Shown: piece after piece, positions 9,507 through 33,554 of the stretch | How positions within the stretch are numbered: the first letter of the stretch is position 1 | How the letters are laid out: each line of letters starts with the position of its first letter | IMG/VR virus record: IMGVR_UViG_3300012920_000129 | Span: 1 to 33,554 of that record | Direction: 5' to 3' (one strand) | Origin: a virus | Length of the DNA stretch: 33,554 nt | Position numbers and translations under genes: made by a program | Notes under the pieces: generated by a model | Told to the model about the DNA's origin: nothing | What the model saw: the letters and a program-made list of their open reading frames with translations, nothing else | Database searches by the model: none

Positions 9507-10463
9507 TTAATAACCATAAGATCCCCCTCCCAACCCTGTATTGGTAGGTCCGGTATAAATATTAGAAGTTTGTGGAGGGGTGTTTACGGTAGGGGAGGAA
9601 GATAAAGTTTCTTCAGAAGTAGATATATTTCTTTTGTAAGATTTACACCAAAATGCTTTTTGAATTTTAGCATTCCATCTTTGACATAAACCTGCCTTAT
9701 AAAAAGTACATCCACTACATTGTTGCCCCTTATGTTTAGGCATATTTCCTAAATGATATGAAGGAGGTAAATTTGAAGGGACAATTTGACCAGAATCCCT
9801 ATACACTCTATTTAATCCTTGTTTTATAATTCCAGGAGTAAAATCAAAAAGTTGAAGATAATTATTTTTTAAATACTGAGATAATCCTAGTAAGTTTTCT
9901 CTTTGTTCTTTATAATCTACTGTATTTTTATTAGCTAAAGCAACTTTATCCTGCTCCCCAGAAATAACCCAAGGCAAAATAAAAGGAGTATATAAATAAA
10001 AATCTATACTTTTATCTTTAGTTTTTAATTGTTGATATTCTTTTTGACTTATTTCTATAAATAAAGATTCACTATTTTTTTTACAAAAATATCTATCAAA
10101 CTCACCTATTTCATAATCATCCGATGTAGGTTTTGGTGGTATGTATTGTGGTAAACGAGGAGCTTTTGGAGAATCGATACCTCTTAAATTAAGGTAGCTT
10201 AAAGTTTTCGTTGAAAATTGATATTCTTGATCTTGAGGGGTTTCTTCAGGAGTAGGTTCAGCTGCAGATATATCAGAAACTGAATCTTTTTGGAATTTTA
10301 CTAATTCTATAGTACTTTGGGTACTATCAGGGGTTTTACCTGCAAAATATTTTCCTGTTGATGTGGCCCAATAAAACCCAGTGTAAGGTTGACCTGTTTC
10401 AAGAATAACAAATTCATTGCTACTATATAAATTAGTTTCTATTTGAGAATTAGGAAAATACAT
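9507..10463 (-). CDS. Baseplate-region protein with HiPIP-like four-cysteine motif
   Basis: 318 residues. Residues about 20-55 hold a YTGFYWATSTGKYFAGKTP segment, a pattern I associate with phage baseplate proteins. Near the C-terminus are Cys249, Cys252, Cys260 and Cys273 (C-x2-C-x7-C-x12-C) in the context KGQQCSGCTFYKAGLC and FWCKSY. The last part fits the high-potential iron-sulfur protein signature (C-x6-9-[LIVM]-x3-G-[YW]-C-x2-[FYW]) except for Phe in place of Gly. A Gly/Tyr-rich tail follows. The start overlaps the hub gene stop (TAATG). A metal or Fe-S site in the tail tip is plausible, since the lambda tail-tip protein gpL carries a 4Fe-4S cluster. Zinc is equally possible. The role is unknown. 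Confidence 0.8.
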   Translation of the reverse strand: MYFPNSQIETNLYSSNEFVILETGQPYTGFYWATSTGKYFAGKTPDSTQSTIELVKFQKDSVSDISAAEPTPEETPQDQEYQFSTKTLSYLNLRGIDSPKAPRLPQYIPPKPTSDDYEIGEFDRYFCKKNSESLFIEISQKEYQQLKTKDKSIDFYLYTPFILPWVISGEQDKVALANKNTVDYKEQRENLLGLSQYLKNNYLQLFDFTPGIIKQGLNRVYRDSGQIVPSNLPPSYHLGNMPKHKGQQCSGCTFYKAGLCQRWNAKIQKAFWCKSYKRNISTSEETLSSSPTVNTPPQTSNIYTGPTNTGLGGGSYGY

Positions 10464-13405
10464 TATGCATTATTTTGAGACCATGAATTTATTCCGGGAT
10501 AAATAGGGATATCTAATGATAAAATTTCGGCTGCTGTTAATTCTGTAAAATCCTTACCGTTTTTTACTGCTAAATTTTTAGCTTCTTCTTGCCCAGTTGA
10601 TGATGAAAATTTCATACCAAAATGAAGAGGGTCATATCTATTAAAAGTAGCCCCCCAACTAGAAAGACGAGAGGTATTTAAAGCATCAACAATCCCTGTT
10701 TGAGCCCACTCTTCAGGTGAGTTACTATTACCTCTTACTTTTTTCCCAGTTGTTAAATCAATTAAAGTAATGTCCAAAGCCATACCATAGTTGTGGGGTG
10801 AGGTACCAGGAACCGCTGCTACCCCTGAATGGCTTGCGGTAGCTTTTTTCTGGTCTTCAAAAGTTCTAACAGCTGAATTAACACTAATTTTTAGACCCTG
10901 CATTAGGGGTTCTTTTAATGCTAAATTTAAAAATTCTAAGAAATAAGGTCTAGCTTTAGGATTAACATACTGTACTACAGTTTCGGGGGTGGTGCGAACA
11001 AATCTAGTTAAACCAAAACTTCTTTCAAGTGATTCAATATTACCCCACCATAACTCTGCTGGTTTAGAAGGGTCAGAGGCAATAGGTTCTCCAATATTTG
11101 AGGTTTCTTTTTGTCTTTTAGTTTGAGTTTTAGTATTTTCACCTTTTATTATACCACCAAGATCCGTAATTGGTTCACCCTTTCCAGCGGGCCATGAAAG
11201 AGTATTCACTGTAGTGGTCCATTCATTATCTTTAATATCGTGAGATACTCCTTGTACTATAAAATTAACATTTGAAGGATAAGATGGAGGTAAAATATAG
11301 TCAGGACCTATATCAAACTTAGTATACAAATCAAACCCTGCTATACCTTGCATAGTTAATGATAATTCTACGGGTATAAAGAAAGGAGAAGTAATTTCAC
11401 CTAATCCTGCTCTCCATTGTAGATCATAATTTAATATACTTTGAAGTGGAGTAGATGCTTCATCTATTCTACTTTGTTCATGTAAAGTTCCTAAGTTCCA
11501 ACATTGAGAAAGATGCGTAGATACATTAAATATTTCTTTAGTAAATAACTGGTAGGGGGATTTAGAAGTAGCCTGTCTATAAGGTTTAGCTCCATTAGCT
11601 ACCCTATCAGTTAAACCTTTGTTTAATTTTTGGAATGAAGAAATTTGTTCCCCTGCAGTAGCATCTGGGTTTTGGGCTGCTATAGCAATTGAATTTTGTA
11701 GATTTGGGAAAATTTTACTAGAAAATGATACATCTTTAACAAAACTACCTTCTTTAGCTTTAGTATCTACCCCATAAATGTAAATCTTTGCTGTTTCTCC
11801 TTCAGGAGTAACTCCCGGGATTGACATATCATCAAATATTTGGAGGGCATTGCTTTTTTCAGCATAGGAAATTTTTAGGGAGTTTAAATTCCCTGTGGCA
11901 TTCATTACTCCATCTAAAATATTTGTTACAATATCACCTAATGCTACTCTACCTTCTTCATCTTTAGTAGCGGTTATAGTTTCTAAAATAAAGTCTAAAT
12001 TTAGTAAAATTCCCATAATATCACCTTTGAACTTATTATCTGTACGAAATAAGTCATCAAACTCAGCACCTCTGGGGTAGGAATTAGAACCTGCTGTGCT
12101 TCTTCCATCAGTAATAGCGGGGGATGCGCTTTTTCCTAGTAAACAAACTTTAGGATCAATAGATTGTTGATAAGGATGGGTTAACATAGCAGAACGTTGA
12201 TAAAAATAATCTATACCTAAAATAGGTTCAGTACCATTGTAATATAAACATCTATCTTGGAGTAACCTTAAAAAGAAACCCATAGTAATATAATATTGGG
12301 GTACTTCTTCTCTTAAATGGGGAGCCCCATTAGTTTTCATATCAAATCTAACAATTTCTGATCCTTTACGTATGGGAAACCCAAAATAATCTTCGATTTT
12401 AACCCAAGTCATGCCATTTTCTCCTTTGATTTGACCTTCTGTTCCAGGGAGCTCGTTCCACCACCACGAGTTAGAGGTACTCATAAAATCACCGGCATAC
12501 TCTCCTTTTGTAGCATCTTTAACATTTTGGAATACCTGAGTAAGGATTTCTCCTTTAGGGTTTTTAGGATCTTCAAACACTTCTTTAGTAATTTGACTCG
12601 TTGTGTCTTCGGTAGCAGGGTGGTTTGTTCTTAAAGAATCAATTAAACCTCCTCTACTAATTACATCAAGTTGAATTTGATATGTTCCATCTGATCGGAA
12701 ACTCCAATTGAAATTACTAATGTATCCTAAAAACCCATCATAATTAAAATGAGAACTTTCTATTTCATCTTCAATTAAAGAATTAATTCTACTAAATGTG
12801 CCTTCTTTACCCCCGTTCATAAAAGCTTCAAAAGGTTTAGTAGAAAATGTATTTCTTTTTTCTAAATTACCCTCATTATCATAATATAATGAATGACCCC
12901 ATTCTACTAAAATAGTAAACCCTAATCTTAAATATAAAGTTTCAATAAGTCTAAATTGATCGGGATTGTGAGCTACAATACTTAAACTAGCCTTTCTTAT
13001 AGCGCCCCTATTAAGTGCTTGAATATTTAAGGATTCTACTGCTGGGGGTGGAGTGTATCCCCATTTATCTGTGTTACCTGCTACCCCATAATTAGATAAT
13101 ACTTGGGACGCTAAGGTATCGTTAGGGTCACTTAAGGCTTTATTTCCAAATCCACCTTTATCATTTACAACAGGGCCAAATAAAACCATATTTTTAGCTA
13201 AACCATTACCTTCTAATTTGAAATCAGAAACTTGAGCTAAAAAAGTATCATTAACATTTACACTAGAAGCTACCCTTAACCAAGAATTATTAGAATTTTG
13301 ATAAATTATATCATTTACATCTAAACTCTGTTTTCCTAATTTTTCTTGTCTTTTATTTATTTGAGCAGTTAATCCTGCTTTTAGATTTTCACCTATTATG
13401 CTCAT
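10463..13405 (-). CDS. Baseplate hub protein with C-terminal M15 peptidoglycan peptidase
   Basis: 980 residues. The first three-quarters have no strong motif but read like a hub/spike-base protein (for example ASLSIVAHNPDQFRLIETLYLRLGF and ISNFNWSFRSDGTYQIQLDV). The last 140 or so residues are a zinc peptidase of the M15/VanY type: SAVRTFEDQ (844-852), SPHNYGMALD with His871 and Asp878, and DPLHFGM with His928, which are the expected zinc ligands. It should cleave peptide cross-links of the cell wall during injection, the job the gp5 lysozyme does with gp27 in T4. The start overlaps the LysM-like gene by ATGA, and the stop overlaps the next gene by TAATG. The peptidase call is firm; the hub role rests on size, fusion and position. 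Confidence 0.86.
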   Translation of the reverse strand: MSIIGENLKAGLTAQINKRQEKLGKQSLDVNDIIYQNSNNSWLRVASSVNVNDTFLAQVSDFKLEGNGLAKNMVLFGPVVNDKGGFGNKALSDPNDTLASQVLSNYGVAGNTDKWGYTPPPAVESLNIQALNRGAIRKASLSIVAHNPDQFRLIETLYLRLGFTILVEWGHSLYYDNEGNLEKRNTFSTKPFEAFMNGGKEGTFSRINSLIEDEIESSHFNYDGFLGYISNFNWSFRSDGTYQIQLDVISRGGLIDSLRTNHPATEDTTSQITKEVFEDPKNPKGEILTQVFQNVKDATKGEYAGDFMSTSNSWWWNELPGTEGQIKGENGMTWVKIEDYFGFPIRKGSEIVRFDMKTNGAPHLREEVPQYYITMGFFLRLLQDRCLYYNGTEPILGIDYFYQRSAMLTHPYQQSIDPKVCLLGKSASPAITDGRSTAGSNSYPRGAEFDDLFRTDNKFKGDIMGILLNLDFILETITATKDEEGRVALGDIVTNILDGVMNATGNLNSLKISYAEKSNALQIFDDMSIPGVTPEGETAKIYIYGVDTKAKEGSFVKDVSFSSKIFPNLQNSIAIAAQNPDATAGEQISSFQKLNKGLTDRVANGAKPYRQATSKSPYQLFTKEIFNVSTHLSQCWNLGTLHEQSRIDEASTPLQSILNYDLQWRAGLGEITSPFFIPVELSLTMQGIAGFDLYTKFDIGPDYILPPSYPSNVNFIVQGVSHDIKDNEWTTTVNTLSWPAGKGEPITDLGGIIKGENTKTQTKRQKETSNIGEPIASDPSKPAELWWGNIESLERSFGLTRFVRTTPETVVQYVNPKARPYFLEFLNLALKEPLMQGLKISVNSAVRTFEDQKKATASHSGVAAVPGTSPHNYGMALDITLIDLTTGKKVRGNSNSPEEWAQTGIVDALNTSRLSSWGATFNRYDPLHFGMKFSSSTGQEEAKNLAVKNGKDFTELTAAEILSLDIPIYPGINSWSQNNA

Positions 13406-15799: not shown

Positions 15800-18649
15800 T
15801 TATTGGGTTCTGTAAGATCCCATTCCTAACATAGTTCCTACTTTATTACCATCCATGTTAATTACTCCTCCTTTTTCTACAGCAGCTACTAAACGTTCTA
15901 ATAATTCTATAGTACGGCCATCATCTCCTCCTCCCATAGGATTAGTACCTCCTATTACTATATCATCAGGACGGAATTTTTGTATAGGTTGTCCTGGGCG
16001 AGAAATAAAATCAGCAGCTGTATCAGAAGCAACTCCCATACCCTCTGAATCTTCACCACCCCCAAAGGCATTAATTGCCATTTTTCCTAAGCCAGAAGTG
16101 TCTACATTATCAGATATTAAGTCGGCCACATATCTTCCGGCCATATCTCCTAAAACACCCCCTACGAAAGTGCCTACACCTGGTACTGGAATGAAACTTC
16201 CTAATATTGAGCCTAAAAGTCCACCCCCTAATCCCCCAATAGCATTTACTACTTGATTTCCTACCGCTCTGGGGTCAGCTCCTCCCCCAGCAGTTTGGGA
16301 TAACATGTAAGCTTCTATTGCGGGTCCTACAATCATTCCTAAACCAGGAACCCTTTTAAGGAATTTTGCTATATTAGGTCCTTTTAAAAATTTACCAATT
16401 GCTTGTTTAGGGTTTAATTTACCTGCTACTTCACCTACTTTACCAGCTACATTTGAAATAGCGCCTCCAGCTTTACTCACCATACTTTTAGCCCCTCCTA
16501 TAGCTTTACCTGCAAATCCTTTAGCTTTACTTGCTATGTTGCTGAAAAATCCACCACTTTTAGCAGCACCACCTGCTGCTGAGGAAGCACCTGCTGCTTT
16601 AGCTGCACCACCACCACCGGCTGCTGCTCCTGCTGCATTACCTAAATTACTAGCCATACCTCCTGCTGCGCCCGCAGCATTTTTTAGTGAACCTGTAAGG
16701 CCCTTAACATTTTTAGTTAAGTTTTTCATAACACCCCCACTGCCTTTCATATTTTTTAGGAACTTAGCAGAGTCTCTTACAAATGAAAGACCTTGCATAA
16801 GAGCTATAGCACCAGTAAGAAGTCCAATTGCAGTTGTTAATTCCGGGATAGCTGTAGCTACTTTATCCATAGCGTCTTTCATCCCCGTAAACGCCTCAGG
16901 GGACATAGCCTTCATCATCTGGTCCTGCATTTTTATTTGTCCTTCACGGAATTTTTCTTCTGCAGTTTGGGCTTTTCGCTTACTAACTAGTTCTTTTTTA
17001 CCTGAATCTGTTACTAACTTATCTAATTTACCTTGGGTTTGTGCTTTTAAGTCAGCTAATTGTTTTGCTTTTTCTTCTTCAGTTGCAGCACTTTCTAATA
17101 TGGCTTTTCTGGCTTCGGCTTCGCCAGACATAATTAAATCGTACTTTTTATTGACAGCATCGTCTAAGTTAGTAGCCCCTTCAACCTGAAGTTGGTTTAG
17201 GGCTTTTTGTTCAGCAAACATATCTGCCATTTCACCTCGACTCATACCCATTGCTTTAGCAATAGATTCTTGTTCGATACGATTCATTTTACTAAACTTA
17301 GCAGCAGTAATACCTTGTTTTTGGATCTCTTTAGCCATTCCTACCAAATCACCATCTAGGGCCATTTGTCTAGCTTTTTCTAAATTAAGATCTCTTCCAA
17401 GTAAAAGTTCTGCTTCTAACTCATTAGCAATGGATTGTTCAAAGTCTAATAAGTTACCTGCGATTGAGTCCATTTTATCAAGACTCAATCCCATTTTTTT
17501 AGCTTCAAATGCTGCTTTAGCTAAACTAAATCCTTGTGCTTCTAAAGAAAATTTAACAGCATTTGAGGTTTGATTAATATCTTTTAATATACCCTTATAA
17601 TCAAGTGCTGTATCATTTTGAGCATTTAATACTTTAACAGTACCAATTGCTTCATTAGTAAAATCTTCAAAACTTTGACCAGTAGCTAATGCAAATTTAT
17701 TTAAATTACCTGCTTCATCTGCTGAAAATCCTAATTGTTTGGTTAAAGTGGCAAATGTAGTTAAAGTACTAGAAGATAAATTAGCTGTGGTACCTAAAGC
17801 GGCGTTAGCATCATTTAAGGCAGCTGTAAGATCAGTTGCTACAAGGCCTATATTTTCTTGAGCAATATCTATAAACTTTTGTTGAAGTTTAGCTGCTTGG
17901 AGAGTACTTACATTTAGATTTTTTTCTAATGACACGGTAGCTTCATCAAATCTTTTAAACCCTTCAACAGCATTATCAGCTACCATAACCATAAATCCTT
18001 TAGCAAGATCTTTGGCAACCCCTTTAGAGGCCTTAGATAAGGCACTCATTTTATCGTTTGATTCTGCTAATTCATTATTGAAAGTTTCAGCAGCACCTGC
18101 CATTCCACTAAAGACTTTACCTACAATTGGAATAGATTGAGTAACTTCTGATAGTGTGGTGAAAGGGTTAGCCTTTTCCATTTTATCAGTAGTTTCTATT
18201 ATTTCCTCAAATTGTTGTTTGACTTCTTCAGCAATACTATTCTGTTCTTGCATTTGAACCAAGACCTCAGCTAAAGCATCTGCTTCTTGTAAAGCTGCTT
18301 CTTCTCCAATTGCATATAAAGCATTTATATCTTCTTGAAGGGTTACTATTTTGGCTGCCCTACCGGCGCTTTCAGCATCTAACTTAATAAGTTCTTTTTT
18401 AAACTCTTGGTTTTTCTTTAAACCCTTAAGTTGATCTTTAGTTAAGCTTTGGAGTTTACTAGCTAATTTATCAGCTTGTGATTGTGAAGTTTTAAAACTA
18501 CTAGCAGTATCACCTGTAGCTGTGGCAGCATTTTTAGCGGCATCCGCTAAGGCAGTACTTACACCACCTAAAGCTTGCTTTAGTCGTGTTGCCTCTCTAT
18601 TTATTTCCTTTAAAGTTTTAGGATTTAAATTTTTATCGAATTCCGCCAT
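15800..18649 (-). CDS. Tail tape measure protein
   Basis: 949 residues. The N-terminal half is helical and coiled-coil-rich with many Lys, Glu and Ala. A hydrophobic stretch lies near residues 600-625 (TTAIGLLTGAIALMQGLSF). An Ala/Gly/Ser low-complexity linker covers about 660-700, and a Gly-rich hydrophobic region near 800-845 (GLGGGLLGSILGSFIPVPG) could insert into membrane during DNA entry. It is the longest gene of the tail core and follows the chaperone pair, the standard position for a tape measure. T4 gp29 is about 590 residues; at about 0.15 nm per residue this one would set a tail near 140 nm. ATG at 18649 follows an ATATTTAT element by only 7 nt and has no Shine-Dalgarno. Confidence 0.93.
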   Translation of the reverse strand: MAEFDKNLNPKTLKEINREATRLKQALGGVSTALADAAKNAATATGDTASSFKTSQSQADKLASKLQSLTKDQLKGLKKNQEFKKELIKLDAESAGRAAKIVTLQEDINALYAIGEEAALQEADALAEVLVQMQEQNSIAEEVKQQFEEIIETTDKMEKANPFTTLSEVTQSIPIVGKVFSGMAGAAETFNNELAESNDKMSALSKASKGVAKDLAKGFMVMVADNAVEGFKRFDEATVSLEKNLNVSTLQAAKLQQKFIDIAQENIGLVATDLTAALNDANAALGTTANLSSSTLTTFATLTKQLGFSADEAGNLNKFALATGQSFEDFTNEAIGTVKVLNAQNDTALDYKGILKDINQTSNAVKFSLEAQGFSLAKAAFEAKKMGLSLDKMDSIAGNLLDFEQSIANELEAELLLGRDLNLEKARQMALDGDLVGMAKEIQKQGITAAKFSKMNRIEQESIAKAMGMSRGEMADMFAEQKALNQLQVEGATNLDDAVNKKYDLIMSGEAEARKAILESAATEEEKAKQLADLKAQTQGKLDKLVTDSGKKELVSKRKAQTAEEKFREGQIKMQDQMMKAMSPEAFTGMKDAMDKVATAIPELTTAIGLLTGAIALMQGLSFVRDSAKFLKNMKGSGGVMKNLTKNVKGLTGSLKNAAGAAGGMASNLGNAAGAAAGGGGAAKAAGASSAAGGAAKSGGFFSNIASKAKGFAGKAIGGAKSMVSKAGGAISNVAGKVGEVAGKLNPKQAIGKFLKGPNIAKFLKRVPGLGMIVGPAIEAYMLSQTAGGGADPRAVGNQVVNAIGGLGGGLLGSILGSFIPVPGVGTFVGGVLGDMAGRYVADLISDNVDTSGLGKMAINAFGGGEDSEGMGVASDTAADFISRPGQPIQKFRPDDIVIGGTNPMGGGDDGRTIELLERLVAAVEKGGVINMDGNKVGTMLGMGSYRTQ

Positions 18650-18672: not shown

Positions 18673-18698
18673 AAAAAGCATCATTTAGATGCTTTTTT
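18673..18698 (-). terminator. Hairpin terminator after the chaperone pair
   Basis: 10-bp stem AAAAAGCATC/GATGCTTTTT with a 5-nt loop, followed on the coding strand by more T residues. The stem overlaps the stop codon at 18681-18683. It is nearly symmetrical and so could also act on the other strand, although no opposing gene exists. Confidence 0.75.
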
Positions 18699-18977
18699 CA
18701 TTGTAGTTGAATATGTTGGTGGTTGAATTTGTTTAGAATTCTTTTGAGCTTCCTCCTTAGCAGCTCCCTGAAGCCAGCTTTGTGTGGCTTCATCTTGTTT
18801 AGCATTATTTTGTTTATCGTAATATTCTTTTATTTTATGGAATGTAAATTTTCTAAGCCAAGAAGGCATATTATATACATCGTTCCAAGAATACCCACCT
18901 TGTCCATGAAAAACTATTTCATGTATTTGGTTAAACAAATTTTGCCTAACTAGGGGTGCGGCATCAGGAGTCAGGCC
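18681..18977 (-). CDS. Tail assembly chaperone, frameshift-expressed second part
   Basis: Reading frame with good coding character that begins inside the end of the upstream gene and ends at 18681. From the T-run it reads GLTPDAAPLVRQN, then LFNQIHEIVFHGQGGYSWND, then MPSWLRKFTFHKIKEYYD, about 98 residues. It has no ATG before an internal Met well inside the domain; the only options are CTG or the TTG at 18938 without a ribosome site. This fits synthesis as an extension of the 247-residue protein by a net +1 (or -2) ribosomal shift, as in the lambda G-GT type of tail chaperones. It lies directly before the tape measure, where these chaperones always sit. T4 gp51 occupies the comparable position, but similarity is not established. 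Confidence 0.72.
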   Translation of the reverse strand, partial: GLTPDAAPLVRQNLFNQIHEIVFHGQGGYSWNDVYNMPSWLRKFTFHKIKEYYDKQNNAKQDEATQSWLQGAAKEEAQKNSKQIQPPTYSTTMKKASK

Positions 18978-19707
18978 AAAAAAAGCTCAAGCCGATTGGA
19001 AGTTGAACGGATTCATCTTCTCCGTCTTCATTAACTAATAATACATCCATATTCACATCAGGGGTGATTTGAGAATAGAATTTTCTAAATTCTCTGACAT
19101 CTTTAGCTAGAAAATAATTATTGATAAATTCTCTGATGTCTTTAGATTCTTCAGATCCATTTACAGATGTAATGGTATGAAATAATCTAGTAGTTACTTC
19201 GGCGGAAGTTGTTTTACTTATTTTTTTAAGTCCCTTTAATTCAGCTTCAATTTTCCTTTCATCGTGCCCCGTCAATAGTTTAAATGTTATTTCATTTCCA
19301 GTGTGGGGTAATTTAAAAGAAAATCTATTTTTACCTTCTTTAAATAAACTTTCGTCTATATCTTTATTTTCTAAAAGAGCTAAATCAACTTCTTGTTGTG
19401 TTCCCCCGTATGTAACTTCATACTTTCCACCATACGCCAAAATACGTGCAGCAATCATGATTGCGTTTTTATCACCCACTAGTAAATCATTATAATTAAA
19501 TTTAGTCATAATCAATGATTGAAGAAGTTTATCAATCACAGTTCCATTTTTAATATAATTTTGATTAGTAAGGATATCCTCTTCTTTAGCAGTCATATAT
19601 TTTATTTCAATTTTTCCTTCTGCTAAAGGGTGCCCTTCAGGGTATAATAAACCTTTTGATGGCAATTCTATAACCTCTGTGGGTAAATTAAATTGTGTGT
19701 CACTCAT
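18964..19707 (-). CDS. gp26-like T4 baseplate family protein / tail assembly chaperone
   Basis: 247 residues. The N-terminus ELPSKGLLYPEGHPL followed by IEIKYMTAKEEDILT is the hallmark of the T4_baseplate family (gp26 and relatives). The end is LPIGLSFFWPDS. In T4, gp26 takes part in assembling the central hub; in related phages the family occupies the chaperone slot before the tape measure. Start is ATG at 19707 with an A-rich leader and an ATATTTAT element 21 nt upstream. The gene is flanked by a terminator before and, after the overlapping partner, a second one, so the two form their own unit. The T7 run four codons before the stop probably extends a fraction of the product. Confidence 0.85.
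   Translation of the reverse strand: MSDTQFNLPTEVIELPSKGLLYPEGHPLAEGKIEIKYMTAKEEDILTNQNYIKNGTVIDKLLQSLIMTKFNYNDLLVGDKNAIMIAARILAYGGKYEVTYGGTQQEVDLALLENKDIDESLFKEGKNRFSFKLPHTGNEITFKLLTGHDERKIEAELKGLKKISKTTSAEVTTRLFHTITSVNGSEESKDIREFINNYFLAKDVREFRKFYSQITPDVNMDVLLVNEDGEDESVQLPIGLSFFWPDS
18975..18985 (-). promoter_or_regulatory. Candidate ribosomal frameshift site (T7 run)
   Basis: The coding strand reads C-TTT-TTT-TGG-CC near the end of the 247-residue gene, with zero-frame stop TGA at 18964-18966. Shifting +1 or -2 at the T run enters the open downstream frame. A -1 shift hits TGA after two codons, so the usual -1 mode does not work here. Confidence 0.6.
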
Positions 19708-19796: not shown

Positions 19797-20285
19797 TTAG
19801 TAGTTCAATACGCAGTAGTCCATATCTACTGTAAGATCAATTTGTTGTGGGTTTTCTGTATTATCGTAATTGTATTCCCCAAAGCTGGCTTCAGTGATGA
19901 TAGCACCCTTAATAACCCATTCACTTACTATATCACCTACAGGGCCCAATATGTTAAGGGTTAAGTCTTTTTTATAGAAATCAGAGTAGCCATCTCTACC
20001 TGTTACAGATTCGTGTCCTAATCTTACCCACTCCATTACTGCTTGAGCTCCAGAAGGAGTAATTGGATCATGAAGTGTTAAGGTAATAGGATTCCATACT
20101 GTTTTACCTTTAATTTTACGATAAACGTTAATATAATTTATTGTAATTGCTGGTTGGGAAAGACCAACTGCGCTTACACTTTTTATCGTGTAGCTGGGAA
20201 CCCCATCCAAATACAGTATGAACCGGTGTTGTTGTTTGGGTTCAAATGCTGTAAAGAAAATATCGTTTGAATCTAATACTGCCAT
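19797..20285 (-). CDS. Tail tube protein (gp19-like)
   Basis: 162 residues, almost the same length as T4 gp19 (163). It starts MAVLDSNDIFFTAFEPKQQHRF and ends VDMDYCVLNY. The KQQHRFILYLDG opening, the GLSQPAITINYINVYRKIKG stretch, the VWNPITLTLHDP segment and the FGEYNYDN near the end match the tail-tube family of contractile phages. Hexameric rings stack inside the sheath. It lies directly after the sheath gene as in T4. It has its own ATATTTAT element upstream and a strong terminator downstream, so it forms a single-gene unit suited to high expression. Confidence 0.93.
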   Translation of the reverse strand: MAVLDSNDIFFTAFEPKQQHRFILYLDGVPSYTIKSVSAVGLSQPAITINYINVYRKIKGKTVWNPITLTLHDPITPSGAQAVMEWVRLGHESVTGRDGYSDFYKKDLTLNILGPVGDIVSEWVIKGAIITEASFGEYNYDNTENPQQIDLTVDMDYCVLNY

Positions 20286-20345: not shown

Positions 20346-22088
20346 TTAATATCCTCCTCCACCACCTCCTTCAGGGAATGTTGCCCCCGTTGGTTGAACG
20401 TTGAAGTTTAGGATTACAAATTCTGCTGTTTTAGTTGGTTGTAAGAAAACTTGTCCTACTAATTCATTTCTATCAATCACAGCTGGGGTGTTGATTGAAT
20501 CGTCCATAACAACTTTAAACGCGTATAAACCTTGTCTTTGTTGTACTGATTCGAGGTATGGGTTTACAATAGCTAAGAAATTATTTCTAGTAGCTTGTGT
20601 ATTTGCTTCGAATACTACATTTCCTGATTGAGAATCTAAGAATTGCTTTATGTTAATTAATAATCTTCTAACATTAACTCGATCTAGTGCTGAGGCTTTA
20701 GTTTGTAGTGTCTTTTGACCAAAGACTACTACTCCAGCTCCAGGGAAGGAAATGATTGGATTAACTTTATCTTCATAAAGCGTATCTCTCATAGCTTTAG
20801 TTAAAGTTCTTTGTGTTTTTACTACGTTTGGTAACGCACCTCTGTTTAAACCCGCCGGAGCGAACCAAGGCTCACCTACTTTATCATTATAAGCGTATAC
20901 TCCAGGAATTACCGTTGATGGTGGAACCCACTCTAATCTATTTGTTGATGGGTCATTGCATAATAACCAGGGGTAATAAGATGCTGCATATGAATTATTA
21001 AGGCTAACTGCTCGTCCAGTTACATCAGCAACTGATGAAGTGTAATCACCTAGATCAACTATAGCTATGCTATCAGCTCTATTCTTTGTGTTAGTTAACA
21101 ATATATCTAATGCAGATGTCATAGAGCCTGAATACCATAATCCAGGTGCTGCAATTGAAGTATACTTAAATTGTTCATCATTCAATAAGTAGAATGAAGC
21201 TGTAAAATCATCTGCAGATAAACCCTGAATATTAGCGTCTGAAATATCTTTTCCAAAGAGAGGGGTTGTTCCTGGGGTTCCTGTTGCTCCACCAAATCCT
21301 TTTGAGCCTGATCCTGCGTCGGTATTAACAGGAACACTAGCAGTAAAAGCCTGAACTCTTACATTCCCTAAACCGTCAGTATAATTAGGTGTTTCAGTAA
21401 TATCAGAAACAAAAACATATTTACTTCTGTTTGCGTAATCACCGTCTACGTTTACATAAACATCAGTTCCGGATCCGGCTACTGTAGTATTTTGGGTACC
21501 AATTACTTTACCTATAAATTGACTATCAAATGGGTCAAGATTTACATTATTGAATTGCTCAAGGATAATTTTTTCGTTGTCACTATCGTCTCCTCTTCTA
21601 ATAACAACTGTAAACGTTCCTGAAGATGTATTAGCATTAGTAATTTCATATCTAATGTTAGATCTAGAACCTGAGGTAAATATACCATTTACATCGGCAG
21701 CGGTTGTATCACTATTTTGATCATTACCTTGGGCTATAGTGTTTAGAGTAAATGAAGCACTATCTGCAGAGCCTGTTACACTAGCGGTTGCCGAAGTATG
21801 TGTATTTGCTACTGCTCTACTTACTAATAAAGTAGTACCACCATTATTAAAGTAGTTATAAGCTGCTTTTGAAGTAAAGTATGAAAAGGTACCACTACCG
21901 CTTATTAAAATATCGCCAAATACTGCAACATACTCAGGATAAGAAGATACTAAAGTAGGGATTTGAACAGGACCTTTAACTGTAGGTCCAACTATAGCGG
22001 CACCTGCTTCTACTATAGACTCAGGAAGAAACGATTGATCCGTTTCGTTGATATAAATGCCAGGAGAGACGATGTTTTGTGTTGCCAT
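20346..22088 (-). CDS. Contractile tail sheath protein (gp18-like)
   Basis: 580 residues, against 659 in T4 gp18. The N-terminus NIVSPGIYINETDQSFLPES followed by AAIVGPTVKGPVQIPTLVSS is the classic sheath opening. The middle is a variable, Ser/Thr/Gly-rich protrusion domain. The C-terminal domain has NPIISFPGAGVVVFGQKTL and VRRLLINIKQFLDSQ, the conserved sheath core that contacts the tube and neighbouring subunits. The tail ends GGGGGGY. ATG at 22088 with leader ATTACAAC and an ATATTTAT element 25 nt upstream. The tube gene follows after a short gap. Confidence 0.96.
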   Translation of the reverse strand: MATQNIVSPGIYINETDQSFLPESIVEAGAAIVGPTVKGPVQIPTLVSSYPEYVAVFGDILISGSGTFSYFTSKAAYNYFNNGGTTLLVSRAVANTHTSATASVTGSADSASFTLNTIAQGNDQNSDTTAADVNGIFTSGSRSNIRYEITNANTSSGTFTVVIRRGDDSDNEKIILEQFNNVNLDPFDSQFIGKVIGTQNTTVAGSGTDVYVNVDGDYANRSKYVFVSDITETPNYTDGLGNVRVQAFTASVPVNTDAGSGSKGFGGATGTPGTTPLFGKDISDANIQGLSADDFTASFYLLNDEQFKYTSIAAPGLWYSGSMTSALDILLTNTKNRADSIAIVDLGDYTSSVADVTGRAVSLNNSYAASYYPWLLCNDPSTNRLEWVPPSTVIPGVYAYNDKVGEPWFAPAGLNRGALPNVVKTQRTLTKAMRDTLYEDKVNPIISFPGAGVVVFGQKTLQTKASALDRVNVRRLLINIKQFLDSQSGNVVFEANTQATRNNFLAIVNPYLESVQQRQGLYAFKVVMDDSINTPAVIDRNELVGQVFLQPTKTAEFVILNFNVQPTGATFPEGGGGGGY

Positions 22089-25592: not shown

Positions 25593-26525
25593 TTAAAAAG
25601 TTATAGAACAAAACGATCCTGTTGAAATTGAAAGAGTACTACCATTACATATAGAAATAGTAGGACCTACAAACTGGTGATTTACGTTGGGTGGGATAGT
25701 TTGATCGTTACAAATTAGGTTAGGATTACCAAAACCTGCTAATACTAATAATAAATCATTTACATTAACTTGTCCATCTAAATTAATGTCACCCGCAGCA
25801 ACACCTCCTTCTCCACTACCTGTTGGGATGTCAGTTTGGCCAAAATTTGCTAATAAGTTTAATAAATTATTTACAGTGAAAGATCCAGTGGAGTTAAATG
25901 ATCCCGTGTTTTCAAAAGAACCTGAGTTCCCAAATGAACCAGAAAATGAACTCGAACCTTCACTATTAAATGATCCTGAATTATCAAATGAACCTGTGTT
26001 TGAAGTGGATCCAGTTATAGAAAAAGTAGTGCTTCTTAAAGATACAGGAACTGTAGGATCTCCAATTTGGAAAGAACTTGTTGTCATATCAAATAAAGCA
26101 ACATCTGAAACTAAGTGTCTGACCCTACCAGGGGCACTAGATTTCATCTGCACAAATGTTGTGTCATCAGATTCGTGAACAATTTGTTTACTTCCTGTTC
26201 TAAGACTTTTACCTTCTTTAAGATTTGTTACATCAGCTTTAGTAAATTTAGTAATCTTACCATCAGATGCTACGAAATTAATAGAGGCTGTAGATACATA
26301 AAGTTCTCTCCAAGCTGAGGTTGGTGAACCTAAGTCAAAAGAAGAAGTATTATCAGTTACAGAAGAAGAAGGGATTATATTCCCACCAATAGTTATACTT
26401 CCTGTAAGGGAGATATCGTTTTCATATATGTCATTAACTGATGTTTTAATCTCGTTGAATATAGCAGCATTAATTAAAGCTAAACTGCCACTATTTGTTC
26501 TATCGTCCCAGGTTATTTTTGACAT
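25593..26525 (-). CDS. Fibre protein with GSF repeats and dockerin-like domain
   Basis: 310 residues. Residues 1-170 are a fibre-type region (MSKITWDDRTNSG, DLGSPTSAWRELYVSTASIN). Residues about 171-216 are a short repeat of GSFxNxGSF units. Residues 214-265 look like a type I dockerin: a degenerate first half TVNNLLNLLANFG, then GDINLDGQVNVNDLLLVLAG FG with Asp246, Asn248, Asp250, Gln252, Asn254 and Asp257 as calcium ligands. Four Cys lie in the last 50 residues. Dockerins bind cohesins in cellulosomes and occur scattered in other bacterial proteins; in a virion fibre one could bind calcium and a partner protein or host surface. Start ATG at 26525 with an upstream ATATTTAT element. Confidence 0.82.
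   Translation of the reverse strand: MSKITWDDRTNSGSLALINAAIFNEIKTSVNDIYENDISLTGSITIGGNIIPSSSVTDNTSSFDLGSPTSAWRELYVSTASINFVASDGKITKFTKADVTNLKEGKSLRTGSKQIVHESDDTTFVQMKSSAPGRVRHLVSDVALFDMTTSSFQIGDPTVPVSLRSTTFSITGSTSNTGSFDNSGSFNSEGSSSFSGSFGNSGSFENTGSFNSTGSFTVNNLLNLLANFGQTDIPTGSGEGGVAAGDINLDGQVNVNDLLLVLAGFGNPNLICNDQTIPPNVNHQFVGPTISICNGSTLSISTGSFCSITF
25733..25886 (-). other. Dockerin-like duplicated calcium-binding motif
   Basis: Two copies of [V/T]VNxLLxxLAxFG at residues 214-229 and 253-266. Only the second has a full D-x-N-x-D-G-x-V-N-x-x-D loop; in the first the acidic ligands are replaced (NSTGSFTVNN). Confidence 0.75.
25887..26015 (-). repeat. GSF-N-G short peptide repeats
   Basis: About 43 residues built of six- to seven-residue units: NTGSFDNSGSF, NSEGSSSFSGSF, GNSGSFENTGSF. 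Regular Phe spacing suggests a small beta-solenoid or trimeric beta structure. Confidence 0.75.
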
Positions 26526-28641: not shown

Positions 28642-31600
28642 TTATCCTAATGAAATTTTTAACGTTGTTCCATCTCTCCATAATTGACCTGAAGATGTAG
28701 GATCTGAAGTGGGCAATGCCCCGGGGTCTAAGAAGACTCTAGAACTAGATGGATCGTTCTCTTCTGTCCAAATTTCAAGGACATTATTTCTATGGGCTTC
28801 GGTACCACCATTACCATACGCTAGACCCATATAGTAACTACTTGTAAGATATGAACCCATCGTCTTACTTCCAGTAGCATTATATTTACCTATTATAAAT
28901 CTACCATCATCTGCTGTGGAAGGTGCACCTGTATTGGCATCTGTAAGGTGGACTCCTAAGATTTGTGAACCTTCTTTACTAGCTACTACAAATTGACCAC
29001 TTGCAAAACTATAATTACCACTAGCAACTACTGCGTTACCTTGAGCATGTGAAAAATCACCAGATGCTGTTACGCCATACCCTTCGGCGTGGGCAGAAAC
29101 ACCATCAGCTCTTGTGTTTTTACCTTCAGTGTGTGAATGAGGTCCAATAGCTAATGTATTCAATCCTTCAGCATGTGAAGCAACACCCCTTGCTATTGAT
29201 CCTGAGCCTTCTGCGTGGGCATATGAAGCTTCTACAGATGTAAAGTAACCTTCAGCGTGTCCTGCTATAGCTGGGATCCAAGTTGCTCCTGTATCAAAAC
29301 CAGTGACTTTACTTTGGTAACCTTCAGCGTGTGAATAAGTACCAGAAGCTTCAGTTTCATAACCTTGAGCATGAGTGTAATCCCCAGATGCACTACTGTA
29401 ATAACCTTCAGCGTGAGATGCTATGCCTTTTGCTACTGATCCTGATCCTTCAGCATGGGAGGAATTTCCAGAAGCTATTGTTTTGATACCTTCGGAGTGA
29501 GAGCCTGTAGCAGATGCTAAAGTATTGTGACCTTCGGCGTGGGAATATTCTCCTGAAGCTGTTGAGGCTTGTCCTTCAACGTGGGAAGCTTGGCCTGAAG
29601 CTAAATTTATGATTCCCTCTGCGTGGGAATATTTACCTGATGCTAAATTATGCGCTCCTTCTGCATGGGATGATTGTCCTGTTGCATCTGAACTAAATCC
29701 TTCAGCGTGGGATGCTAATCCACTAGCTGTGGTAAAGGCACCTTCTGCGTGTGAAGCATTTCCTGAAGCTGTTGTGAATTTACCTTCAGCATGGGCTCCT
29801 AAATTAGATGCAACCGTATAATATCCTTCAGCATGGGCAGCTATTTGAGATGCTATTGATCCTGACCCTTCTGCGTGGGTATATTTACCAGAAGCTATAG
29901 TAAAGAAACCTTCAGCGTGGGCTGCTATTCCAGATGCTATTGATTGTGATCCCTCAGCGTGAGCACTTTGTGCTGAGGCTGAGGTGTGTCTACCTTCTGC
30001 GTGAGCACCTTGAGCGGTAGCGTCGGTACTAAACCCTTCAGCATGGGAATAAAAACCAGAAGCCATAGTATTATAACCTTCTGCATGTGATCCAAACGAT
30101 GTAGCATCAGTTTGAACTCCTTCAGCATGGGCACTAGTAGCAGTTGCTCTTGTAAATTGACCTTCAGCGTGTGCTGAAATTGCACTTGCTGTTGTATTGT
30201 ATCCTTCGGCGTGTGATGACATACCACTTGCAAGTGATCCTGAACCTTCGGCATGTGCATACTTGTTAGTTGCTTCTGATCTAAATCCTTCAGCATGTGA
30301 ATGGTTAGCGGATGCTATAGTAAGTTCACCTTCTGCGTGGGCCGCAATTCCTGATGCTGTAGTACCTAAGCCTTCTGCATGGGAAGCTATTCCTGATGCT
30401 ATCGATCCTGAACCTTCAGCATGGGCATATTTACCAGAAGATGTGGAGTTTCTACCTTGGGCATGGGAATAATCACCCGTAGCATCTGTGGCAGATCCTT
30501 CAGCATGAGATACATTTCCTGTGGCTGAAGTAGATTCACCTTCAGCATGGGAAAATTGACCCGAAGCTAAAGTATTGTGACCTTCGGCATGTGAATTAGT
30601 ACCTGTAGCCGAAGTATTTTCACCTTCAGCGTGAGAGGCATACCCTGATGCTGTTGTACTAATTCCCTCGGCATGAGATCCATGATTTGAAGCAACTGTA
30701 TTAATTCCTTCAGCATGAGCTGCTATACCACTTGCTAACGAGCCCGATCCTTCGGCATGAGCAAAATCACCGGATGATGTAGTAAGATTACCTTCAGCAT
30801 GAGTGGAAGTTCCAGATGATACAGTTTGGAAACCCTCAGCATGTGAATTAGCACCTGTTGCTTTAGTATCATTACCTTCAGCGTGTGAATAAATACCTGA
30901 AGCTGTAGTGATTCTACCTTCGGCGTGTGATGAAAGGCCACTTGCTCTAGTTGTAGAACCTTCAGCGTGGGATGAAATTCCTACAGCTGAGGTAGAATCT
31001 CCTTCAGCGTGTGAAAAATTACCAGAGGCCGTTGCTGAAGAACCTTCTGCGTGGGCTGCTATACCACTTGCTAATGTACTATCACCTTCAGCGTGGGCAT
31101 AATTTTGTGTAGCATCTGTAGAGTTTCCTTCGGCATGAGAAGCAAATCCTGAAGCTGTAGTAAGTCTTCCTTCTGTGTGGGAGGCTACTCCTTTAGCAAG
31201 TGTTTGATCACCTTCAGCGTGGGATATACTTGAAGATGCTATTGAACCTGAGCCTTCGGCGTGTGAAGCAAAAGCAAATGCAACTGTTTTATATCCTTCA
31301 GAGTGGGCTGCTGTTTGAACCGCAAATGTTTCGGAACCTTCAGCGTGGGAGTGATACCCTGAGGCTGTTGTATAATATCCTTCAGAGTGCGCGGCATACC
31401 CATCAGCAACAGTATGGTATCCTTCAGCGTGACCAGCATGGGCAGCATTAGATGTTCTAGTATTATATCCTTCAGCATGACTATAAACAGCAGAAGCAGT
31501 TGTGTTAAAACCTTCAGCGTGAGTATAAGCCCCTTGGGCATGTGTAAATGAACCTTCAGCATGAGCTGCATCAGAAGATGCACTAGTATAAAAACCTTCA

Positions 31601-33554
31601 GCATGTGAATAGCCACCTTCGGCTTTAGTTTGATATCCTTCTGCGTGAGATGAAGGACCATTTGCTTGGGTTTGATCTCCTTCTGCGTGAGCAGATGAGC
31701 CTGATGTTGATGTTTTGAATCCTTCAGCATGAGAAGCATCCCCTTTAGCGTTAGTTTGGAATCCTTCTGCGTGGGAAAAATCTGCTTCAGCATTTGTTTT
31801 ATATCCTTCTGCGTGGGTTGCTTCTCCATTTGCATCAGTTTTAAAACCCTCAGCGTGAGAATTATCTCCTAAAGCTGTTGTGAATGTACCTTCAGCGTGA
31901 GATGCATATCCCCTAGCTTCAGATGATGCACCTTCTGCGTGAGAAGCTTCTCCTATAGCTTTACTTCTACTACCTTCAGCATGAGATTGGTTTCCAGTTG
32001 CTCTAGTACCAAATCCTTCTGCGTGGGATTCGGCACCTTCAGCTTTTGTATCTACCCCTTCTGCGTGAGCTGCACTTCCTGAGGCAATAGTGTTTGAACC
32101 TTCGGCGTGTGCATATTGAGCTGTAGCTTTTGTTTGGAAACCAAATGCTTGGGAAGCTTCCCCAGAGGCTTCGTTATTCATACCAAAAGCGGCGGCATTA
32201 AATGCCGTTACCCTATTACCAAATCCTTGAGCTAAAGTACCTCTTTGGTCTAGTACATTATATTCACCAACAACAAAGACATTATCTGCACTACAGCTAA
32301 TAATATTACCTAATTCACCACCAAATGGGAAAGCAGATCCCGAAAGTGGACCTACACTTAAAAATCCTCCATTAGCTATTACTTGACCCCCCGAGTCTAC
32401 TCCTAAAGAGAAAGAAGTTTCATTACAACCTAAAGCACTAAGACCTGGGAAGTTTTCGTTTGCTATTTTGAAAAACTGTTTAGTAACAGAATCATTAAAA
32501 TTTAAGAATACTGGAACATCTTGTGAAGGTTCAGCTTTGAATAATTTAAATCTAGAGCTTTCTAAGGTTCCATAATAATGTAAATCGTCGTAAAAGGTTT
32601 CAGTACTAGTTTCACCATTCATTATGACAAATACCTTATCTCCTCTATTAAGAGTGACATCGTGTGCATCAAGTTGAAGATTAAAATCTATAACCGAATC
32701 ATAGACGCTATCTCCCCAATAACCCCCACCTCCACCAGTTGATGAAGCATTACCAGAACCATTTCCTCCTGAAGCATTAGAAGCGGCAGCCCAGGCTTCA
32801 TATGTAAATCCTGCTGGGGGAGATTGGTCATTTCCTGGGATATCAGTTTGAGTGTAATCGTTTCGTTGTTTAGTAATAACTCTTTGGCCTAATGTTGTAG
32901 GATTGTTACCATTTTTATCAACTTTTATAAATGTAAAGGTAAATGTATCTTCAATATTATTTGTAGAAGCACCTGCACCATTATATGAACGTGCAAATGC
33001 TCTAAAATCTATATAAGCTCTAAACTTAAACGTCCCATCAAAAGGTGCTATATAAACACTTGATGTTGCTCGTTGACCTTCAATACCCGGGAAGCCTATA
33101 TCACCTCCTGCTGTAACTTTTCTCCTACTATAATTTCCTTTTTCATCATTAAGGATATTATTAAACTGTAGAAGTTTAGCACGGTTTTCTAAACCAAATA
33201 TAGCACCTGTTTTTTTACTAGAATAAGGATCATATAAGGAAGAAGTAAAACCATGGGTCTCGTTATTTTGAAGTTGAGTTATGCTGCTTAATAGACCATC
33301 TCCACTTCCTTCGGGGGCTCCTGCTATTACATTGTCATAATAACTTGCTGTAGTTTGGTTATCTGTAATTCTTAATTGAAGTGGGAAAGAAGTTAATGCC
33401 TGGATAGGTTCATTGAAATATTGTAATGTTGGTTGACCTTCTGCTGAAGAAGTTACTGCGTATGAACTGCCAGATTCAGGCAAAGATATATGCCATTCAC
33501 TTGTAAATGATCCTGTTACTTCTATTCCTAATTCGTTAGTATCAAAACTATCTA
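28642..33554 (-). CDS. Giant YadA-like beta-roll adhesin/fibre (N-terminus beyond window)
   Basis: The frame is open to the right edge, so the true start lies outside; the TTG at 33483 is internal, with the in-frame upstream sequence GIEVTGSFTSEWHIS reading well. 1636 residues are visible. The first third is a non-repetitive Gly/Ser/Asp-rich region. Then come 73 copies of a 14-residue YadA-head type repeat with consensus ASGxxSHAEGxxTx. The end is DPTSSGQLWRDGTTLKISLG, a short cap that resembles other phage fibre ends. YadA-like repeats form trimeric left-handed beta-rolls, and HAEG variants are known in phage tail fibres. A long rigid host-recognition fibre is the likely role. A terminator follows at 28601-28626. 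Confidence 0.9.
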   Translation of the reverse strand, partial: DSFDTNELGIEVTGSFTSEWHISLPESGSSYAVTSSAEGQPTLQYFNEPIQALTSFPLQLRITDNQTTASYYDNVIAGAPEGSGDGLLSSITQLQNNETHGFTSSLYDPYSSKKTGAIFGLENRAKLLQFNNILNDEKGNYSRRKVTAGGDIGFPGIEGQRATSSVYIAPFDGTFKFRAYIDFRAFARSYNGAGASTNNIEDTFTFTFIKVDKNGNNPTTLGQRVITKQRNDYTQTDIPGNDQSPPAGFTYEAWAAASNASGGNGSGNASSTGGGGGYWGDSVYDSVIDFNLQLDAHDVTLNRGDKVFVIMNGETSTETFYDDLHYYGTLESSRFKLFKAEPSQDVPVFLNFNDSVTKQFFKIANENFPGLSALGCNETSFSLGVDSGGQVIANGGFLSVGPLSGSAFPFGGELGNIISCSADNVFVVGEYNVLDQRGTLAQGFGNRVTAFNAAAFGMNNEASGEASQAFGFQTKATAQYAHAEGSNTIASGSAAHAEGVDTKAEGAESHAEGFGTRATGNQSHAEGSRSKAIGEASHAEGASSEARGYASHAEGTFTTALGDNSHAEGFKTDANGEATHAEGYKTNAEADFSHAEGFQTNAKGDASHAEGFKTSTSGSSAHAEGDQTQANGPSSHAEGYQTKAEGGYSHAEGFYTSASSDAAHAEGSFTHAQGAYTHAEGFNTTASAVYSHAEGYNTRTSNAAHAGHAEGYHTVADGYAAHSEGYYTTASGYHSHAEGSETFAVQTAAHSEGYKTVAFAFASHAEGSGSIASSSISHAEGDQTLAKGVASHTEGRLTTASGFASHAEGNSTDATQNYAHAEGDSTLASGIAAHAEGSSATASGNFSHAEGDSTSAVGISSHAEGSTTRASGLSSHAEGRITTASGIYSHAEGNDTKATGANSHAEGFQTVSSGTSTHAEGNLTTSSGDFAHAEGSGSLASGIAAHAEGINTVASNHGSHAEGISTTASGYASHAEGENTSATGTNSHAEGHNTLASGQFSHAEGESTSATGNVSHAEGSATDATGDYSHAQGRNSTSSGKYAHAEGSGSIASGIASHAEGLGTTASGIAAHAEGELTIASANHSHAEGFRSEATNKYAHAEGSGSLASGMSSHAEGYNTTASAISAHAEGQFTRATATSAHAEGVQTDATSFGSHAEGYNTMASGFYSHAEGFSTDATAQGAHAEGRHTSASAQSAHAEGSQSIASGIAAHAEGFFTIASGKYTHAEGSGSIASQIAAHAEGYYTVASNLGAHAEGKFTTASGNASHAEGAFTTASGLASHAEGFSSDATGQSSHAEGAHNLASGKYSHAEGIINLASGQASHVEGQASTASGEYSHAEGHNTLASATGSHSEGIKTIASGNSSHAEGSGSVAKGIASHAEGYYSSASGDYTHAQGYETEASGTYSHAEGYQSKVTGFDTGATWIPAIAGHAEGYFTSVEASYAHAEGSGSIARGVASHAEGLNTLAIGPHSHTEGKNTRADGVSAHAEGYGVTASGDFSHAQGNAVVASGNYSFASGQFVVASKEGSQILGVHLTDANTGAPSTADDGRFIIGKYNATGSKTMGSYLTSSYYMGLAYGNGGTEAHRNNVLEIWTEENDPSSSRVFLDPGALPTSDPTSSGQLWRDGTTLKISLG
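29038..32109 (-). repeat. 73-copy 14-residue HAEG (YadA-head) repeat array
   Basis: Counting H-[A/S/T/V]-[E/Q]-G cores gives 73. The span of 3072 nt equals 72 steps of 42 nt plus one core plus 12 extra residues. The extras lie in two longer units: one with 2 added residues (NAAHAGHAEG) and one with 10 (near 29248-29319). All other units are therefore 14 residues. Confidence 0.93.

Follow-up and report, generated by a model that had tools for sequence, protein, structure and literature searches.

Tail-assembly chaperones of the lambda gpG/gpGT type are made by -1 frameshifting, as Xu, Hendrix and Duda reportedly described in 2004, and Vladimirov, Gautam and Davidson are said to have identified the chaperones of T4-like phages in 2022 and to have argued for a mechanism other than frameshift. 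The locus analyzed here lies in the tail module, on the minus strand, of IMG/VR virus record IMGVR_UViG_3300012920_000129, whose whole stretch of 33,554 bases is called the window. At the 3' end of its gp26-like gene (18964..19707, minus strand), comparison of sequences points very strongly to a programmed +1 ribosomal frameshift site, through which a second open reading frame (ORF), ORF2 (18681..18977, minus strand), would be joined to the gp26-like protein. Chaperones of the lambda type made by a -1 shift have been reviewed, and in that standard review T4 is named as an exception to the conserved tail-chaperone frameshift (PMC5009743). T4 gp26 and gp51 are counted among the chaperones of hub assembly (PMC3004832); in a citing paper the T4-like chaperones come from one short gene and from a longer fusion gene that stands apart from it (PMC10885494); and -1 poly-T sites are known in some contractile-tailed phages (PMC12846349). 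As to +1 shifts, slippage of the P-site codon from UUU to UUC has been demonstrated for influenza PA-X at UUU_CGU (PMC3498833), and the bacterial prfB shift takes place on CUU_U, rarely on UUU_U (PMC5009743). No report of +1 shifting in gp26/gp51 was found in the open-access papers searched, the 2022 work of Vladimirov, Gautam and Davidson lying outside that coverage. Frameshifted tail chaperones are already known; a +1 shift in the gp26/gp51 pair is a direction-reversed variant that is apparently new.

The locus shares with lambda gpG/gpGT two overlapping ORFs between the tube and tape-measure genes, a downstream ORF devoid of a start, and the expectation of a short major and a long minor product; it differs in that the shift would be +1 at a P-site UUU_Y and not on an X_XXY_YYZ heptamer. 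In T4 the long form comes from a separate, divergently transcribed gene and no frameshifting is involved, whereas the phage of the window would make both forms from one locus. T4-type relatives carrying T_TTT_TTC have the homologous pair and the same Phe-Phe place, and differ by their -1 frame and canonical heptamer. Influenza PA-X and prfB (CUU_UGA) resemble the window in that a YUU codon in the P site is left for UUY by re-pairing one base ahead; the junction of Streptococcus phage GXN1, UUC_UUU_CGU, shares the UUU_CGU core of PA-X, and the relatives with TTTCTTT have CUU_U, as in prfB. The window differs from prfB in its A-site codon, TGG, and in that, on average among the relatives, there is no strong pairing to the anti-Shine-Dalgarno sequence just upstream. 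Phage Mu (-2) and the haloarchaeal virus HSTV-2 (probably +1) also reach a tail-chaperone fusion through the +1/-2 frame; neither was recovered by the gp26 searches made here, and Mu differs by its -2 shift, against which the relatives argue in the present case. An earlier note on this DNA had drawn a parallel with a tail-chaperone shift in Listeria phage PSA, which has to be dropped, since the +1 shifts of PSA are in its capsid and major-tail genes (PMC5009743).

The proposed slip site and the second reading frame

The gp26-like gene encodes 247 amino acids and ends with CCA ATC GGC TTG AGC TTT TTT TGG CCT GAC TCC TGA, so that its product finishes in G L S F F W P D S (C-terminus FFWPDS). The tandem Phe codons 242-243 lie in the sequence TTT_TTT_T at 18978..18984 (minus strand), which occurs once in the gene; this T7 is the only run of seven or more T on the coding strand of the window, and in-frame TTTT is also present earlier in the gene. 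The +1 frame (equal to -2) is open from 18986 to a stop at 18681-18683, reading FFGLTPDAAPLVRQNLFNQIHEIVFHGQGG..., with no ATG before an internal Met in YNMP, and encodes 98 amino acids counted from GGC CTG ACT (GLTPDAAP...). Such a long +1 extension past the stop, of 283 nucleotides (nt), is unique among the 18 gene ends of the window, the next longest being 97 nt. A decoy ATG overlapping the gp26 stop (TGATG; 18950..18964, minus strand) is in the wrong frame and reads MPHP-stop, and the -1 frame is closed by a TGA two codons past the T run (TTG GCC TGA; 18971..18973, minus strand). The earlier note had described the end of the gp26-like frame, the T7, the startless second frame and the wrong-frame ATG, and had a -1 shift meeting a stop after two codons; direct reading of the sequence bears out all these coordinates and frames.

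Related loci were collected by scans of IMG/VR, a phage collection and genome assemblies, down to about 25% gp26 identity, and removal of near-copies (85% over 300 nt) gave a set of 170 non-redundant loci. By tblastn, ORF2 matches Flavobacterium phage Immuto (4e-10), with 41% identity along the entire query, and also Microcystis phage Mel-JY01. Immuto is a cultured phage, and its gp26 is 57% identical to that of the window. The +1 frame of ORF2 runs past the gp26 stop without interruption in 253 of the 258 readable IMG/VR and phage loci (86 clusters), and ORF2 is in the same frame in all 12 readable genome-assembly loci, two of which are on one contig. Hence the second frame, whose retention in relatives together with a T run the earlier note had proposed as a check, is the same +1 frame in 265/270 readable loci. 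Automatic classing had labelled 16 loci as '-1'; a re-test with explicit +1 criteria discarded the label, these being mostly longer chance -1 ORFs on contigs that also hold the +1 ORF. Beyond the gp26 stop, in the part free of overlap with any other gene, the ratio of nonsynonymous to synonymous polymorphism (pN/pS) of ORF2 is 0.18 in the clade of the window and 0.19-0.29 in three other clades, the control values in the other two frames being about 1 to 5. ORF2 is a real coding sequence under purifying selection. Its conservation starts right at the slip site (FFGLT), and in being in another frame, overlapping, startless and conserved it has the features of the downstream ORF of a frameshifted chaperone pair. 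In the public records of Immuto, Mel-JY01, SP-15, GXN1 and LIS04 the same ORF has an internal start, is a separate gene or is unannotated (L001 3636-3746; L002 3486-3722; L090 2321-2440; L005 and L006 after gp26).

The slippery codons are conserved too. An in-frame YTT_Y codon lies in the overlap at 253/253 +1 loci and at every one of the 170 non-redundant loci. The full TTTTTTT is found in 151 of these 170, the remainder having mostly TTTCTTT, TTCTTTT, CTTTTTT, TTCCTTT or TTCTTTC, all still YTT_Y. At third positions, the two slip codons have an information content of 1.63 and 2.0 bits, compared with 0.03-0.06 bits for the majority of upstream codons, and at the second slip codon none of 205 Phe codons is TTC, which accounts for 21% elsewhere in the gene. 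The kind of P-site slip codon used by prfB, YUU_U, is available as TTT_T in the window and as CTT_T in several relatives.

Two relatives near the clade of the window, L183 and L188, have an ORF2 with its own ATG just past the gp26 stop, and their slip codons now read TTC TTG TAT and TTC CTT TGG. Both adjoin Immuto inside the +1 group of the gp26 tree (100/99 support). The earlier note held that an ATG-started second gene in relatives would count against its proposal; such a gene occurs only in rare relatives, and its gain in L183 and L188 supports the slip reading because the tandem TTT site has been degraded at the same time.

The two proteins and their T4-type relatives

The gp26-like protein belongs to PF12322 (T4_baseplate), with 30.2 bits against a curated cut-off of 24.5 (4.7e-7), and 27 of 38 relatives match the same family at E<=0.01. 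It also matches phrog_150 (baseplate hub, 1.9e-13), and its profile aligns with T4 gp26 (hhalign E=1.1e-4, probability 56). The protein would be the short tail-assembly chaperone (TAC), TAC-N or 'G'. AlphaFold2 models were built on alignments whose rows came from the window and metagenome loci only. In the model of the gp26-like protein, with a predicted local distance difference test (pLDDT) score of 91, the top Foldseek match in the PDB is the HK97 tail chaperone 2ob9, at non-significant values (E=1.3, probability 0.44), and the resemblance is only a hint. By sequence, no likeness of the gp26-family protein to lambda was detectable.

ORF2 is modelled as all-helical (pLDDT 78), and its model has no significant match in the PDB. 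No Pfam family scored above its cut-off for ORF2, DUF6760 being matched weakly in 14/41. Its relationship emerged from profile-profile comparison: T4-type phages have a small gp51-like protein to which ORF2 is homologous (hhalign E=3.7e-6), and the gp26 members of the two pairs are homologous as well (E=1.4e-33). ORF2 would be the gp51-like C-terminal domain, TAC-C or 'T'. Directly against T4 gp51 the hhalign comparison of ORF2 is not significant (P=0.28), and the two are linked only through the T4-type intermediates, whose gp51-like domain matches the last 40 residues of T4 gp51 (208-247; E=3.6e-5). Residues 13-185 of T4 gp51 match in turn the gp26 family (E=1.6e-8). Because it has a gp26-like body (13-185) and an ORF2-like tail (208-247), T4 gp51 looks like a permanent fusion resembling what the phage of the window would make by frameshifting. 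The T4 gp51 gene is at L089 4980-5729.

In T4-type relatives of the phiAS5-like, Rhizobium IC12-like and cyanophage Sf-FS3-like groups, an invariant T_TTT_TTC precedes the homologous ORF2, which lies in the -1 frame (58/59 dereplicated loci). This heptamer occupies the same Phe-Phe position close to the C-terminus of gp26. There is no start near ORF2 in the phiAS5 and IC12 groups. Phage XacN1 (T_TTT_TTT) and Agrobacterium phage Atu_ph07 (T_TTT_TTC) likewise have ORF2 in the -1 frame. The 3' ends of gp26 in the cyanophage group (L286-L369) combine T_TTT_TTC with a start ATG of the gp51-like gene that follows the stop by a few bases; these phages may make the gp51-like domain both fused and free, with the -1 shift being optional.

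The identity of the pair as the T4 gp26/gp51 chaperones, the retention of the +1 site across a large clade and the -1 site of the T4-type relatives all go beyond what the earlier note saw. In the gp26 tree the members with the +1 arrangement group together, losses having come later (fork support 92/64), though several branches are long and the deep placement is unsure. The shift thus seems to have changed direction, once or more, at one and the same Phe-Phe position. On balance, we favour a history in which the stop-independent UUU_UUU_U +1 signal, with no detectable Shine-Dalgarno or RNA-structure stimulator, arose once in an ancient lineage and was kept in phages linked to Bacteroidota, cyanobacteria and Firmicutes, while in the T4-type pair the shift is -1 at the same place, its direction being reversed, and elsewhere a separate gene is used instead.

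Direction and mechanism of the proposed shift

The best reading is a +1 slippage of the P-site tRNA-Phe from UUU to UUY. Most ribosomes would read to the TGA and produce the 247-residue short chaperone. In a minority, the peptidyl-tRNA-Phe, with either of the tandem UUU codons in the P site, would move ahead by one base to pair with the overlapping UUU, after which translation would go on with GGC CUG ACU, giving a fusion of 341 amino acids in which 243 residues are followed by the 98-residue helical domain of ORF2. The sequence predicted to span the junction is SFFGLTP after a +1 shift (Glu-C-type peptide SVQLPIGLSFFGLTPD) and SFFFGLTP after a -2 shift. By homology the products would correspond to the two tail-assembly chaperones of the lambda gpG/gpGT type, the short TAC-N and the long TAC-NC, their T4 counterparts being gp26 and gp51. 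By analogy with lambda gpG/gpGT, both forms may coat the tape-measure protein and the long form may recruit tube subunits. The frames, their conservation and selection, the homology, the loss of the tandem site with gain of an ATG, and the incompatibility of relatives with -1, -2 and transcriptional slippage are read from the sequences. That slippage occurs, its efficiency, its P-site mechanism and the chaperone role of the products are what we infer from them.

A single slip of the P-site tRNA, UUU to UUY or CUU to UUU, fits all the relatives, and the +1 direction is favoured for that reason. A -1 shift was rejected: it meets TGA after two codons, ORF2 does not follow a canonical X_XXY_YYZ heptamer in the -1 frame, and among the 80 closest relatives that frame closes no more than about 100 nt, and in most cases no more than 50 nt, from the gp26 stop. 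The earlier note had left the choice between +1 and -2. Its proposal, that a shift joins a gp26-family protein to a chaperone domain encoded further downstream, is strongly supported by the comparison, with +1 preferred. A programmed -2 shift as in phage Mu, with tRNA-Phe moving back two bases on the T run to give SFFFGLTP, would lead to the same frame, and in the sequence of the window taken alone it is compatible with the T7 site; by a loose test, the tRNA could re-pair at -2 on the run of the window and on that of most relatives (155/170). The Mu tail chaperone was described in 2012 as the only known natural -2 shift (PMC3498833). It is through the relatives that -2 is disfavoured and becomes highly improbable, since re-pairing by two bases is impossible at either Phe/Leu codon in 14/170 of them, from several lineages (TTTCTTT, TTCTTTT, TTTCTA, TTCTTTC, TTCCTTT), and in all 14 re-pairing at +1 is preserved and ORF2 stays in its usual frame; one more flagged locus, L279, was left out as a mis-picked codon.

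The only simple alternative to frameshifting is that ORF2 is translated on its own, either alone or coupled from a non-AUG codon, or by re-initiation after the gp26 stop, in which case no fusion would be made. The first start-like codon in its frame is a TTG (18936..18938, minus strand), which has no Shine-Dalgarno-like sequence and whose position is not conserved as a start in relatives. That the free domain can function is indicated by the separate, ATG-started ORF2 of some family members (L183, L188, L007). However, in 85/213 loci the stretch from the preceding stop of the +1 frame to some 8 codons beyond the end of gp26 contains no ATG, GTG or TTG, and a start codon at any one offset is present in at most 39/217 loci. 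No start position is common to more than 18% of the relatives (30% of those open there), which disfavours sole initiation at the TTG at 18938, the outcome that the earlier note had set against a fusion. Separate initiation would also leave unexplained both the fixation of third positions in the tandem TTT and the beginning of ORF2 conservation at the slip site, and we give it slightly less credence still than the -2 shift. Least credible is transcriptional slippage, in which a T added or dropped on the T7 would make some messages encode the fusion: polymerases do slip on homopolymers and the T7 is unique in the window, but seven T is short for bacterial RNA polymerase, and the run is broken down to 3 or 4 T in 15/170 relatives that keep the ORF2 frame.

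Several points limit the case for a +1 site as proposed here or weigh against it. Taken alone, YTT_Y is common (9/248 codons in the gene of the window), and the relatives are not independent of one another; by our estimate it would occur by chance in an overlap of about 8 codons roughly 25% of the time. The strength of the YTT_Y evidence lies in its universality at one place across 86 clusters. L188 keeps CTT_T despite its ATG-started ORF2, so that the loss there is partial. No conserved Shine-Dalgarno-like stimulator was found near the slip site across the relatives, and no conserved downstream RNA structure in the window and relatives. The 81 nt downstream in the window have a folding z of -0.6; in the relatives the downstream z averages -0.5, compared with -0.34 in an upstream control, and falls below -2 in 19% as compared with 5% of the control, so a structure may be present in some lineages. 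The A-site codon here is UGG and not a stop, whereas at natural +1 sites in bacteria the A site is usually occupied by a stop or by a codon that is decoded slowly. In Escherichia coli UUU_U is reported to be a weaker slip site than CUU_U (PMC5009743).

Genomic setting and meaning for the family

The genes around the pair are arranged, all on the minus strand, in the order sheath (20346-22088), tail tube, gp26-like gene, ORF2 and tape-measure place, so that the pair lies where a frameshifted chaperone pair is expected, between tube and tape measure. The tube protein (19797..20285), gp19-like and directly upstream of the gp26-like gene, matches phrog_4542 (tail tube, 1.4e-22) and, below the cut-off of that family, PF06841 (0.002). 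Directly downstream of ORF2, a protein of 949 amino acids (15800..18649) is the tape-measure candidate by its position and by the annotation of the gene at the same place in Immuto as tail tape measure protein; it had no family match in Pfam or phrog profile searches.

Elsewhere in the window, a minus-strand ORF of at least 2571 codons (1-7713) runs off the end of the stretch. The region is repetitive and has long open frames on the plus strand also, which probably arise as artefacts of a single long gene full of repeats that may encode a fibre. A protein of 1613 amino acids (28642-33483, minus strand) has dozens of SHAEG repeats and a weak YadA-head match below the cut-off (PF05658, 2.9e-4). 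The predicted protein at 25593-26525 (minus strand) contains GDINLDGQVNVNDLLLVLAGFG, resembling a dockerin-type calcium-binding repeat, with no Pfam match at 0.001. A protein of 980 amino acids (10463-13405, minus strand) carries a C-terminal M15 peptidase domain (PF13539, 7.7e-6) and is probably a baseplate hub with a cell-wall peptidase.

The second domain of the chaperone pair is mis-annotated or missing in the public records examined, those of Immuto, Mel-JY01, SP-15, LIS04 and GXN1. The data suggest that frameshifts are commonly used across the gp26/gp51 family at large, their direction having flipped between branches. With members that use a +1 shift, a -1 shift, a separate gene or a fused gene, the family would offer a natural series usable for studying the evolution of recoding.
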